This document shows, one piece after another, positions 16,290 through 30,493 of a DNA stretch of 64,000 nt. Source of the DNA: Roseomonas nitratireducens. Its GTDB lineage: Bacteria > Pseudomonadota > Alphaproteobacteria > Acetobacterales > Acetobacteraceae. The stretch spans positions 62,001 through 126,000 of the forward strand of contig NZ_JAGIYZ010000001.1 of NCBI RefSeq assembly GCF_017813355.1, in the 5' to 3' direction. Numbering within the stretch: the stretch's first letter is position 1; every line of letters starts with the position of its first letter. The notes under the pieces were generated by a model. The model searched no databases. It was given only the letters and a program-made list of their open reading frames with translations, and was not told the DNA's origin. The position numbers and the translations under genes were made by a program.

Positions 16290-18056
16290 TCAGGGGCGCA
16301 GGCGGATCCGCTCGTAGGCGGCCTCGATGCGGCGGGCGAAGCCGGCCGCGTCGCCGACCGTCCGTGCCCAGGCATCGCCCGCCAGCGCGGTCTTCACCCG
16401 CGCATGATGCGCGGGATCGAGCGCATGGGCGCAGGCGATCTCCACATACTCGTCCACGCTCGTCGCGGAGTTGCCGGGAAGCCCGATCGCGCGCAGCAGC
16501 GCGGTCGCCATCCGGGCGGCGAACGCGCGTCCGGCGAGCGTGACGATCGGCAGGCCCATGCGCAGCGCGTCGCTCGCCACCGTGCCGGCATTGTAGGGCG
16601 TGGTGTCGAGGAACAGGTCCGCGAGGCCGAGCCGCGCGCGATACCGCGCCGGGTCGCAGCGCGTGGCGAACAGGATGCGCGCCGGATCGACCCCCGCCGC
16701 CTGCGCCGCCCGGCGCAGATTGGCGATGCCGGTCGCGTTGTCCTCGGTCAGCCACAGCACGCTGCGCGGCGCCCGCGCCATGATGCGCATCCAGGCGCCG
16801 AAGACCGTGGGCGTGATCTTGTAGAAATTGTTGAAGCAGCACAGGACGAAGGCGTCCTCCGGCAGGCCCTCGCTGGCGCGCGTCACCACGGGCAGGGCGG
16901 GCGGCTGGCCGTCATTCGCCTGGTAGAGCCCATCCAGCGGCAGCGGCCGCGGCGCGTAGCCGTCATCCTCGGCTTCCGGCACCACGTCCCGGTCGCAGAT
17001 CATCCAGTCGAGTTCGGGCAGCGGCACCGGGCCGACATAGCCGAGATAGGTCGCCTGCACCGGGGCCGGCTTCCAGCGCAGCGCGCCCAGCCGCGCCCCG
17101 CGCGTCAGCCCGTTGAGGTCGACCAGGATGTCGATCTCGTCGGCGCGGATGCGGCGCGCCAGCTGCTCGTCGGTCAGCTGCCGTACGGGCACATGGTGGT
17201 CGAAGGCGGCGAGGATGCGCGCGCGCAGCTCGCTGCCATCCTCCTCCGTGGTGCAGTAGCCGAACACCTCGAAGCGGCTGCGGTCGTGCCGTTCCAGCAG
17301 CTCGACGATCAGCGTGCCCATGGCGTGGCGGCAGAAATCGGAGGAGAGGTAGCCGACGCGGATGCGGTCATGCGCATAGCCCTGCGGCGGCGCGAGCCGT
17401 TCCGGCGCCGCCGGCACCTTGCGCGCGATCCAGGCCGCGCCGATGCGCGTCTGCAGCGCGGGGTCGTCGGTCAGCGCGAGCGCGCCGAGCGGCCCGCCCA
17501 TCAGCGCCAGCGTCTCCGCGTCCAGGCCAGGAAGGCCGCCGCCGTCGAGCGGCCACATGCAGCCCTTCTGCCGCAGATGCGACCAATGCTGCACCACGTC
17601 GGGCTGCTGCGGATCAAGCTGCAGGCTCTGCCGCAGCGTCGCCTCGGCTTCCGCGTAGCGCTTCTGGTTCTCGAACAGCCGGCCGCGATGGTTGAGCAGC
17701 GGCAGGCGCGCCTCGACCGGCTGCAGCGCGGCCTCCCAGGTGGCGAGCGCTTCCTCCTGCCTGCCTTCCGCTTCCAGCGCGAGGCCGAGATTCACCGCGG
17801 CCTGGTGCAGGTCCGGCTTCATCGCCAGCGCCTGGCGATAGGCGATCATCGCGCCCTGCCGGTCGCCGCCGGCGCCAAGCTGCACGCCGAGGTTGAACCA
17901 GGCGGCGAAGCGCTGCGGGGATGCCGGGTTGGCGGTGAGCCAGGCGCGGTAGAGGCCGATCGCATCCGCCGGCGGCAGGCCTTCGAGGCGCGGCATCAGC
18001 GCCTCCAGCCCCATGCCGGCAAGCGGGACCTGGGTCGCGGTGTCGAGCGGGGCCAT
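16290..18056 (-). CDS. O-GlcNAc transferase-like glycosyltransferase (TPR + GT41/SPINDLY), copy 1
   Basis: A 588-residue cytosolic protein with no signal peptide. Residues about 40-190 are TPR-like repeats (for example AAVNLGLALEAEGRQEEALA), followed by a GT41 catalytic region. The presumed catalytic His is kept in GYLSSDFCRHAMG, the UDP-contacting Lys in FNNFYKITP, and the C-terminal donor-site block is LFLDTTPYNAGTVASDALRMG. It should transfer a sugar from UDP-sugar to Ser/Thr or Asn of a protein. The start lies three bases after the stop of copy 2, with GGAGGG in the end of that gene. The octad-repeat protein upstream in the same run is the likely acceptor. Confidence 0.86.
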   Translation of the reverse strand: MAPLDTATQVPLAGMGLEALMPRLEGLPPADAIGLYRAWLTANPASPQRFAAWFNLGVQLGAGGDRQGAMIAYRQALAMKPDLHQAAVNLGLALEAEGRQEEALATWEAALQPVEARLPLLNHRGRLFENQKRYAEAEATLRQSLQLDPQQPDVVQHWSHLRQKGCMWPLDGGGLPGLDAETLALMGGPLGALALTDDPALQTRIGAAWIARKVPAAPERLAPPQGYAHDRIRVGYLSSDFCRHAMGTLIVELLERHDRSRFEVFGYCTTEEDGSELRARILAAFDHHVPVRQLTDEQLARRIRADEIDILVDLNGLTRGARLGALRWKPAPVQATYLGYVGPVPLPELDWMICDRDVVPEAEDDGYAPRPLPLDGLYQANDGQPPALPVVTRASEGLPEDAFVLCCFNNFYKITPTVFGAWMRIMARAPRSVLWLTEDNATGIANLRRAAQAAGVDPARILFATRCDPARYRARLGLADLFLDTTPYNAGTVASDALRMGLPIVTLAGRAFAARMATALLRAIGLPGNSATSVDEYVEIACAHALDPAHHARVKTALAGDAWARTVGDAAGFARRIEAAYERIRLRP

Positions 18057-18059
18057 GGC

Positions 18060-28358: not shown

Positions 28359-30493
28359 AGGTGCCGATAGACGTCACAGCGTTCGAGCAGCACGTCGTGC
28401 GGGGCGAAGTCGACCGCGCGGCCCTGCTCGAGCACGAGGATGGAATCCGCCCGCACGAGCGAGGACAGGCGGTGGGAGACGATGACCATGGTCCGCCCGC
28501 GGCCGATCTCGGCGAGGTTCGCCTGGATGATCGCCTCGCTGTCCGGGTCGAGCGCGCTGGTCGCCTCGTCCAGGATCAGCAGCGGCGGGCGGGTCAGCAG
28601 GGCGCGGGCGATGGCGATGCGCTGGCGCTGGCCGCCGGAGAAGTTCGACGCGCCTTCCTCGACCATGGTGTCGTAGGCCATGGGCAGGCGCTCGATGAAT
28701 TCCTGCGCGCCGGCCAGCCGCGCGGCTTCCAGCACCTCCGGCAGCGGGGCGTCGGGACGGGCCGCGGCGATGTTGTCGCGCAGCGTGCCGCGGAACAGCA
28801 GGTTTTCCTGCAGCACCACGCCGACATGGCGGCGCAGGTGCTCGAGGTCGATGGTGCGGATATCCGCTTCCCCGAAGCGGATGAGGCCTTCCTGCGGCGC
28901 GTGGATGCCCTGGATCAGCCGCGTGACCGTGGTCTTGCCGGACCCCGAGCGGCCGACCACGCCGATCATCTGCCCCTGCTCCACGGTGAAGGAAACGCGG
29001 TCGAGCGCGGGGCTGGCGGCGCCGGGGTAGCGGAAGGTGACGTCCTCGAAGCGGATGGCGCCGGAGACCGGCGGGCGGGCGAGGCGTTCCCTGGCCCGGC
29101 CCTCGGGCTTTGCGTTCATCACCGTGCCGAGCATCCGCACCGACAGCGCGGCTTCCTGGTACTCGTTGATCAGCGTGACGATCTGAACGAGCGGCCCGGT
29201 CACCTTGCCCGAGAGCATGGTGAAGGCGACCAGGGCGCCGACCGTCAGGCTGCCCTCGAAGACCAGCGCCGCGCCCAGCCCGAGCACGGTGATCTGCATC
29301 AGCCGTTCCAGCACGCCGGTCGCGACCGAGCCGAAGGCCGAGATGCGGCCGACGTCGGCATGGGCGCGCACCGCGGTCGCGACCTGCCCGTCCCAGGCGC
29401 GCTGGCGCACCGGTTCCAGCACCAGCGACTTGACCGCGCGCATGTTGTGCAGCGTCTCGACCAGATGCGCCTGGCGCGCGCCTTCGGCGGCATAGAGCCC
29501 GTTCAGCCGGCCGCGGAAGGACGGCACCATGGCGCCGATCACCAGCGCGATGGCCAGGGAAAAGCCGAGCACCACGAGCGTCAGCACGCCGGAATAGATG
29601 GCGAGCAGCACGAGCAGCACCGGCAGCAGCGCCGCGTCCAGCAGCGTCTGGAACAGCCGGCCGGTGAGGAAATGCCGCAGCTTCTCCGTCTGCTGCATGT
29701 GTCGGACGACCACGCCCGCCGCATGCGTCTCGAAGAAGGACAGCGGCAGGGAGAGCAGGTGCCGGAAGGTCCGCGCGCCGAGCCGCGCATCGACCTTGTT
29801 CGACGCCAGCAGCATCAGCCTCTGTCGGGCATAGGTGAAGAAGCCGTCGAACAGGGCGAGCACGATGAAGACGGCGACGACGACATAGAGCGTCTGCCAG
29901 GCCTGGTGCGCCACCACCTTGTCGATCAGCACCTGGAACAGGAGCGGGATCGCGAAGGCGATCAGGTTCGACAGCACCGCGGCGATGGCGACGCCGGTGA
30001 AGAAGCGGCGGTGGCGGGCGATTTCCGGCAGGAACCAGGAAAAGCCGAAGGGGCGGTCGTCCTCCGCCAGCGCGGTGGCGCGGCGGCACAGGATGAGCGT
30101 GCCCGACCATTCGGCTACGAAACGGTCGCGGGGGACGAGGCGGACGCCTTCCGCCTCCTCCGCCGGGTCGAGCACCGCCGCGGCGAGTTCCCCGTCCGGG
30201 CCCGGGACGACATGGACCAGGATGACCCAGGACCCGTCGCGACGCACCGCGAGCGCGGGATAGGCGCTGCCGAGCCGCGTCGCCTTGTCCCAGGAGCAAT
30301 GCGACAGCGCGCGCGCCTTCAGCCCGAGCCGGCGCATGGAGCCGAGCACGGCCGGCAGCATGTCCGGCCCCTGGGCCGTCGGCAGCTCATCCGGCGCCAT
30401 CTGCAACCCGTGGTGCATGGCGATCAGGAAGAGGCTCCGCAGGGCTGTCAGTTCTGGCGCCAAGATGCGTTCCGCCGGGGATAGGACCCGCAA
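28328..30493 (-). CDS. type I secretion ABC exporter, HlyB type with degenerate C39 domain
   Basis: A 721-residue half-transporter. Residues about 1-135 are a C39-peptidase-like domain in which the catalytic Cys motif is absent (LIAMHHGLQ region) and the expected His is replaced (GSWVILVHV), as in HlyB, so no leader is cut. Six membrane spans follow (about 160-440), then an ATPase domain with Walker A GRSGSGKTTVTR, signature FSGGQRQRIAI and Walker B LLILDEATSALD. The start is probably TTG at 30493; no upstream in-frame ATG or GTG exists before sequence unlike the family. First gene of the secretion and glycosylation run, so its cargo should be the octad-repeat protein. Confidence 0.9.
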   Translation of the reverse strand: MRVLSPAERILAPELTALRSLFLIAMHHGLQMAPDELPTAQGPDMLPAVLGSMRRLGLKARALSHCSWDKATRLGSAYPALAVRRDGSWVILVHVVPGPDGELAAAVLDPAEEAEGVRLVPRDRFVAEWSGTLILCRRATALAEDDRPFGFSWFLPEIARHRRFFTGVAIAAVLSNLIAFAIPLLFQVLIDKVVAHQAWQTLYVVVAVFIVLALFDGFFTYARQRLMLLASNKVDARLGARTFRHLLSLPLSFFETHAAGVVVRHMQQTEKLRHFLTGRLFQTLLDAALLPVLLVLLAIYSGVLTLVVLGFSLAIALVIGAMVPSFRGRLNGLYAAEGARQAHLVETLHNMRAVKSLVLEPVRQRAWDGQVATAVRAHADVGRISAFGSVATGVLERLMQITVLGLGAALVFEGSLTVGALVAFTMLSGKVTGPLVQIVTLINEYQEAALSVRMLGTVMNAKPEGRARERLARPPVSGAIRFEDVTFRYPGAASPALDRVSFTVEQGQMIGVVGRSGSGKTTVTRLIQGIHAPQEGLIRFGEADIRTIDLEHLRRHVGVVLQENLLFRGTLRDNIAAARPDAPLPEVLEAARLAGAQEFIERLPMAYDTMVEEGASNFSGGQRQRIAIARALLTRPPLLILDEATSALDPDSEAIIQANLAEIGRGRTMVIVSHRLSSLVRADSILVLEQGRAVDFAPHDVLLERCDVYRHLWHQQTQHLR

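Follow-up and report, generated by a model that had tools for sequence, protein, structure and literature searches.

Why a giant threonine-rich repeat protein should be encoded between the genes of a type I secretion system (T1SS) and those of two homologues of O-GlcNAc transferase (OGT) is the question raised by a locus in a 64,000-nucleotide stretch of Roseomonas nitratireducens (contig NZ_JAGIYZ010000001.1, positions 62,001 to 126,000), hereafter the window. The repeat protein is built of octads, eight-residue units of the form T-T-T-Q-V-A-A-L, and the two enzymes, GT41a and GT41b, combine tetratricopeptide repeats (TPRs) with a domain of glycosyltransferase family 41 (GT41). Comparative genomics strongly supports a functional link between the octads and both enzymes, and the explanation that we favour, with moderate confidence, is that the five genes form one cassette, whose enzymes would glycosylate octad Thr in the cytosol before the type I system exports the protein to the cell surface. 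Glycosylation, choice of site, sugar donor, export and the role of the product are what we infer from gene content, alignments and models. The closest named contig belongs to Roseomonas (Neoroseomonas) rubea, whose GT41a is 95% identical, placing the window in a close relative within the Acetobacteraceae.

Genes and proteins of the locus

The genes are as follows, with positions in the window:

28328-30493, minus strand: ABC exporter of a T1SS, HlyB-like, 721 amino acids (TIGR01846, PF00664, PF00005)
26937-28358, minus strand: HlyD-type periplasmic adaptor (TIGR01843)
20113-26766, minus strand: octad (ALTTAQ) repeat protein, 2217 amino acids from the ATG at 26766 (PF20080)
18060-20045, minus strand: GT41a, TPR and GT41 glycosyltransferase (PF13844, 269 bits)
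16290-18056, minus strand: GT41b, second TPR and GT41 glycosyltransferase (PF13844, 219 bits)
15425-16276, plus strand: FkbM-family methyltransferase (PF05050, 66.7 bits; TIGR01444 over cut-off)

An earlier sequence-only reading of this DNA had described exporter, HlyD adaptor, octad gene and two GT41/TPR genes in this order on one strand, with a 2217-residue octad-repeat protein and small gaps, and our coordinates agree and place all five on the minus strand: the exporter and adaptor genes overlap by 31 bp, and the following gaps are 170, 67 and 3 bp. Missing from that reading was the FkbM gene, a convergent neighbour that is kept with the cassette in relatives. The combination of ABC exporter and HlyD adaptor by which we recognized type I secretion is present, the adaptor scoring 300.6 bits against TIGR01843 (cut-off 208.65); the gene for TolC, the outer-membrane partner in such systems, is often located elsewhere in the genome. 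The exporter exceeds the cut-offs of PF00664 and PF00005 and matches type I models below their subfamily cut-offs (best TIGR01846, 601 bits against 725.55); its N-terminus has a weak match to PF03412 (C39-like; 13.5 bits), also under cut-off.

The octad protein comprises 277 octads in a single register almost throughout, and PF20080 (ALTTAQ_rpt) matches it in 84 stretches (1690.5 bits, cut-off 26.4), so that the repeat itself belongs to a family already known. Positions 1, 2 and 3 are Ser or Thr in 175, 264 and 221 of the octads, respectively; Thr makes up 25% of the protein, which lacks Lys, Cys, Trp and Tyr altogether. Upstream of the ATG, at 26778, there is an in-frame TTG. Between octads 384 residues apart, the ratio of nonsynonymous to synonymous differences (pN/pS) is 0.51, and for separations of 8, 32 and 48 residues it is 0.70-0.81, which indicates an array evolving as protein under modest constraint.

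As a prediction, a short-helix solenoid is well supported for the octads. For a piece of 240 octad residues, with an alignment made of seven pieces of the same protein, AlphaFold2 gave a mean predicted local distance difference test score (pLDDT) of 94.1 and a predicted template modelling score (pTM) of 0.84, with one helix of 5-7 residues per octad; the C-terminal 200 residues, modelled with 15 homologous tails, are predicted to continue the same solenoid to the end (pLDDT 94.9, pTM 0.87). The solved octad-repeat protein HeliScrew4 (9zem_A) matches in sequence (2.1e-15) and in register, and its octads mostly carry Pro as second residue and Asp or Glu as third, where those of the window mostly have Ser or Thr; Thr at these positions is thus not required for the fold. 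The best Foldseek match to the model in the PDB was mesothelin (8cx3, 8cyh; 5.4e-5), at a low template modelling (TM) score of 0.34-0.49 that may reflect a common helical-repeat arrangement, and VIA-align placed the model among many helical repeats. In BFVD, the solenoid model finds matches among predicted proteins from uncultured Caudovirales phages (best E 2.3e-6), so that phages may carry similar repeats.

Both GT41 enzymes lie far over the PF13844 cut-off of 25 bits, and TPR families are over cut-off in each. His, Lys and Asp are invariant in both families, at H250, K420 and D503 of the GT41a alignment (A2), which matches human OGT and XcOGT, and at H244, K413 and D496 of the GT41b alignment (A3); we take these to be active-site residues of the GT-B domain. 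The His and Lys of both families align with human OGT, and the GT41a Asp was matched to OGT by motif reading, not by alignment. Against the model for HMW1C-like N-glucosyltransferases (NF049992, cut-off 1000), GT41a and GT41b reached 34.7 and 9.6 bits.

Association of octad arrays with GT41 and exporter genes

Co-occurrence was assessed in 299 genomes of the same family, Acetobacteraceae, with orthologue cut-offs set at score gaps (GT41a, at least 490 bits, next 386; GT41b, at least 471, next 389; exporter, at least 801, next 714). PF20080 was found in 50 of these genomes; the GT41a orthologue is present in 26, 25 of them with octads, that of GT41b in 36, all with octads, and that of the exporter in 28, of which 27 have octads. 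Either enzyme occurs in 44 of the 50 octad genomes against 1 of 249 octad-negative ones (Fisher 6e-45, related genomes not being independent). The sole octad-negative genome with GT41a (G525) has a completeness of 66%, and its GT41a shares an 8-kb contig with the exporter and HlyD genes; G445 has octads, GT41 pair and exporter alike, spread over three contigs. The GT41 family at large is less restricted, with GT41a matches of 350-390 bits in six octad-negative genomes, and two other GT41 loci (L187, L209) have no octads within 20 kb. At the level of the class PF20080 is rare, being found in 6 of 385 sampled genomes, four of which (G000, G175, G203, G271) have GT41a or GT41b adjoining an array.

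Adjacency was examined in a GT41a-anchored scan of named genomes, which gave 410 relatives; the best 80 were studied, and all counts out of 80 refer to these loci. An octad open reading frame (ORF) is present in 71 loci, in 66 of them within 500 bp, the median gap being 18 bp, while GT41b and T1SS genes are found in 31 loci each. Gene order is variable: the octads may precede or follow the two GT41 genes, the exporter being upstream, downstream or divergent, and an HlyD adaptor lies near the octads in many relatives. The loci are mostly from Alphaproteobacteria, together with five Verrucomicrobia records (L110, L112, L113, L115, L116), octads being present in all but L112, which is cut at GT41a, and one metagenome-assembled genome (MAG) of Polyangiaceae (L131). 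Six of the nine loci lacking octads (L066, L070, L096, L102, L112, L126) are cut at most 2.4 kb from GT41a on at least one side. In three places (L050 and L170, both of G203, and L123), GT41a is flanked on each side by an octad gene of the same orientation.

Several observations weigh against a fixed partnership of octads and GT41 enzymes. The three remaining loci without octads (L073, L076, L079) hold both GT41a and GT41b, with flanks of about 10 kb on each side in L073 and L076 and about 6 kb in L079; the sequences of L073 and L076 are contigs of G518 and G445, where octads sit on other contigs. Six octad genomes of the family, assembled in 40-1040 contigs each, carry neither orthologue (G391, G500, G584, G640, G642, G667), and no GT41 gene at all was found in the octad genomes G640 and G141. 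Further, the array of G040 has no GT41 within about 22 kb on either side, and one array of G203 (L049) has none nearby. As regards the type of linkage, the octad protein of the window contains 20 N-X-S/T sequons, 16 of which are N-T-T, and N-linked modification at these sites is conceivable. The sequence-only reading had named octad genes routinely lacking GT41 or T1SS neighbours as the finding that would speak against it; for GT41, such a pattern is not seen in the family, where 44 of 50 octad genomes have one of the two enzymes, and is seen in part in the class sample, through G141, G040 and the orphan G203 array. The octad-GT41 link that it proposed stands, on co-occurrence, on adjacency in several gene orders and on the covariation of octad Thr with GT41a described below; the octad-T1SS link came out weaker, given that 27 of 28 exporter genomes have octads, yet only 27 of 50 octad genomes have the exporter orthologue and 31 of 80 loci have T1SS genes.

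The orphan arrays have features of their own. That of L049 (G203:C1:4038001-4058000) is an octad ORF of 3232 codons; the stretches read to its left and right contain no GT41 or T1SS gene, and the GT41a-linked arrays of the same genome are about 300 kb away. The G040 array (L054) has low Thr (12%) and mixed motifs, and is perhaps a GT41-independent relative that could serve for contrast, and L053 is a short PF20080 stretch in G141, the genome without a GT41 gene. Caulobacter vibrioides, a control genome, matches both PF20080 and PF13844, and a related octad/GT41 pair may thus be held by a genetically tractable host.

Threonine at octad position 3

Arrays were fetched for 46 of the 50 octad genomes (not G391, G584, G640 and G642), and G570 was skipped as its stretch held no octads; composition was measured in 45 genomes, two of which have neither GT41a nor GT41b. 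The Thr fraction at position 3 is 0.55-0.94 in 24 of 24 genomes with GT41a (TTTQ) and 0.03-0.38 in 19 of 19 with GT41b only, mostly TTAQ, the two ranges having no overlap. By genus groups (16 against 10), the contrast gives a p of 2.8e-5, and it recurs in genera g325 (0.92, from 12 octads, with GT41a against 0.09), g350 (0.67, from 30 octads, against 0.06) and g373 (0.86 against 0.08 and 0.10). The Jensen-Shannon divergence (JSD) between groups is greatest at position 3 among the eight positions (0.324), and in a GT41b tree with 42 rows three starred branches carry a change in GT41a presence, each accompanied by a change of position 3 in the same direction. Since Thr there is frequent with GT41a and rare without it, we infer that GT41a modifies Thr at position 3, a specific hypothesis that draws on few independent events.

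Those few events allow another reading, in which the covariation reflects hitchhiking in lineages inherited as blocks (TTTQ with GT41a, TTAQ without) and no specificity of the enzyme, which we hold to be possible, although doubtful. In its favour, three GT41a changes on the GT41b tree put significance out of reach (sign test, p 0.25), and the exporter tree (20 rows) shows one change, also concordant, so that block-inherited cassettes could explain the pattern; position 6 also differs between groups (JSD 0.101, the second greatest). As to the measurements themselves, some compositions come from few octads (8 in G398, 9 in G518, 12 in G558, and 8-20 in several genomes); the contrast between GT41b and position 2 is not specific, as position 1 differs more. 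Hitchhiking has to contend, on the other hand, with a position 3 that tracks GT41a at three of three changes on starred branches and within three genera, and which diverges about three times as strongly as the position ranked second.

Precedents, proposed pathway and alternatives

Dedicated cytosolic glycosylation before export has precedents in HMW1 adhesins, in flagellins and in serine-rich repeat proteins. The last are Gram-positive adhesins handled by the accessory Sec system (SecA2/SecY2) and by GtfA/GtfB; they resemble the cassette in pairing a hydroxyl-rich, low-complexity repeat with dedicated cytosolic glycosylation and export, and differ from it in this machinery and in having no octad solenoid. 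The nearest working analogue is HMW1C/HMW1: according to PMC3983070, HMW1C is a dedicated soluble enzyme of the GT41 family that glycosylates the giant adhesin HMW1 in the cytosol before export. HMW1A-HMW1B-HMW1C and EtpA-EtpC likewise place the gene of a GT41-family enzyme next to those of a giant surface protein and of the exporter for it, but HMW1C has an AAD domain, acts on Asn sequons and works with export by Sec and TpsB, whereas the cassette has two TPR-GT41 enzymes, a T1SS and Thr-rich helical octads; the five cassette proteins, to which the scan for TpsB was confined, match other families. An alphaproteobacterial precedent for TPR binding and cytosolic O-glycosylation before export is FlmG of Caulobacter, which according to PMC7591256 binds flagellin through N-terminal TPRs and modifies it through a C-terminal GT-B domain. 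FlmG shares the architecture of GT41a and GT41b, but its substrate is flagellin, its export route the flagellar apparatus and its sugar pseudaminic acid. ALTTAQ proteins (PF20080) are of the same repeat family as the octads, and the link to GT41 and T1SS is what is added here; no description of an octad/GT41/T1SS cassette was found in the literature searched.

Under our preferred explanation, the TPRs of the two enzymes would hold the unfolded repeat as those of FlmG hold flagellin, GT41a would glycosylate Thr at octad position 3, directly before Gln, and GT41b would modify another hydroxyl of the same TTT face, perhaps at position 2. The donor would probably be UDP-xylose from a UDP-glucuronate decarboxylase-like (UXS-like) enzyme, whose gene adjoins the cassette in some relatives and lies elsewhere in this genome; methylation of the sugar may be the task of the FkbM enzyme. 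Once glycosylated, the protein would pass through the type I system to the cell surface, where the octads would fold into a long solenoid with one short helix each, yielding a densely glycosylated surface fibre or coat.

For the sugar, UDP-xylose is a good candidate, guessed from neighbouring genes. UXS-like genes occur in 18 of the 80 GT41a loci and FkbM homologues in 15, while neither was found in 23 control stretches, an unmatched set comprising orphan-array flanks, distant T1SS loci and further contigs from octad genomes; together these genes hint at a glycan of pentose type. The UXS-like protein is similar to human UXS1 (about 3e-125), and its gene directly adjoins the exporter in G445, G611, G518, G575 and G487, the genome of the window having a copy, 73% identical, on another contig. 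UXS-like genes are present in 24 of 25 octad genomes with GT41a, in 12 of 19 with GT41b only and in 40 of 50 overall, but 90 of 249 octad-negative genomes have them as well. In a Phenylobacterium MAG (L101:16359-17324), a flagellin gene lies near GT41a, FkbM and a UXS-like gene.

Export by the linked T1SS is plausible from gene content but not general. In alignment A4, the window protein and eight relatives that have GT41b (with T1SS genes in the stretch of seven) share a C-terminal tail of the form ..TQ....M...Q..ALF., and seven relatives with GT41a only have a related but different C-terminus. An alternative that we consider unlikely, though far from negligible, is that the GT41 enzymes glycosylate the octads while the linked T1SS is not the exporter, the protein remaining cytosolic or leaving by another route in most hosts. 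The exporter orthologue is absent from 23 of the 50 octad genomes and T1SS genes from the stretch of 49 of the 80 loci, some of them cut by contig ends, so that many octad proteins, if they are secreted, must leave through other exporters or by other routes. In addition, no RTX family appears among the Pfam matches of the octad protein (E up to 1), the N-termini of octad proteins, read by eye, have no obvious signal peptide, and the C-terminal 200 residues are modelled as plain solenoid throughout, which leaves no distinct signal domain. Conversely, 27 of 28 exporter genomes carry octads, the remaining one being incomplete, and under several gene orders the exporter stays close to octads. Among eight octad genomes searched that lack an exporter beside the array, G611 and G445 have the orthologue elsewhere, G523, G480, G402, G203 and G040 have only exporters of 37-43% identity, and G141 only matches of 28-31%; in G523, G480, G402 and G203, these more distant exporters have an adjoining HlyD.

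Two further alternatives concern the enzymes. They might act on other targets, such as flagellin, with the octad gene a mere neighbour in an island for surface structures; FlmG, a TPR and GT-B protein modifying flagellin (PMC7591256), lends this some support, as does the flagellin gene in L101. We judge it very improbable, because a homologue of the L101 flagellin is found in 1 of 80 loci and none in the window, against octads in 71, and because GT41a and GT41b orthologues hardly occur outside octad genomes. The chance that the two proteins are chaperones which keep the octads unfolded and transfer no sugar appears slighter still: HMW1C has been discussed as a possible chaperone of its adhesin (PMC3983070), but GT41 motifs are conserved in both families, and nucleotide-sugar and methyltransferase genes lie nearby.

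Beyond the preferred explanation, we tentatively put forward a broader one, which we regard as somewhat improbable as a whole, namely a separate O-glycosylation and secretion pathway of Alphaproteobacteria, Verrucomicrobia and the myxobacterial MAG in which the octad serves as a ruler: GT41a would place a sugar, probably xylose and then methylated, on the third Thr of each octad and GT41b one on another, so that the solenoid fibre, exported unfolded by the T1SS, would bear glycans at even intervals, hundreds in all, with enzyme content and acceptor residues coevolving. If this holds, the enzymes would face a regular helical repeat in which hundreds of sites are nearly equivalent. Natural genomes offer GT41a, GT41b or both, with different acceptor residues, and the long-open question of site choice by OGT-like enzymes would become testable by swaps of enzymes and octads; scaffolds with evenly spaced sugars are conceivable.

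Elsewhere in the window, cellulose synthase genes lie on the minus strand at 38232-46438 and 47814-49079, including those for a BcsC-like protein and a GH8 enzyme and a single long ORF combining glycosyltransferase, PilZ and BcsB domains; they possibly constitute a second surface or biofilm system. Further along the same strand, at 54520-60338, N-termini were named from sequence reading as resembling glgC, glgB and glycogen phosphorylase.

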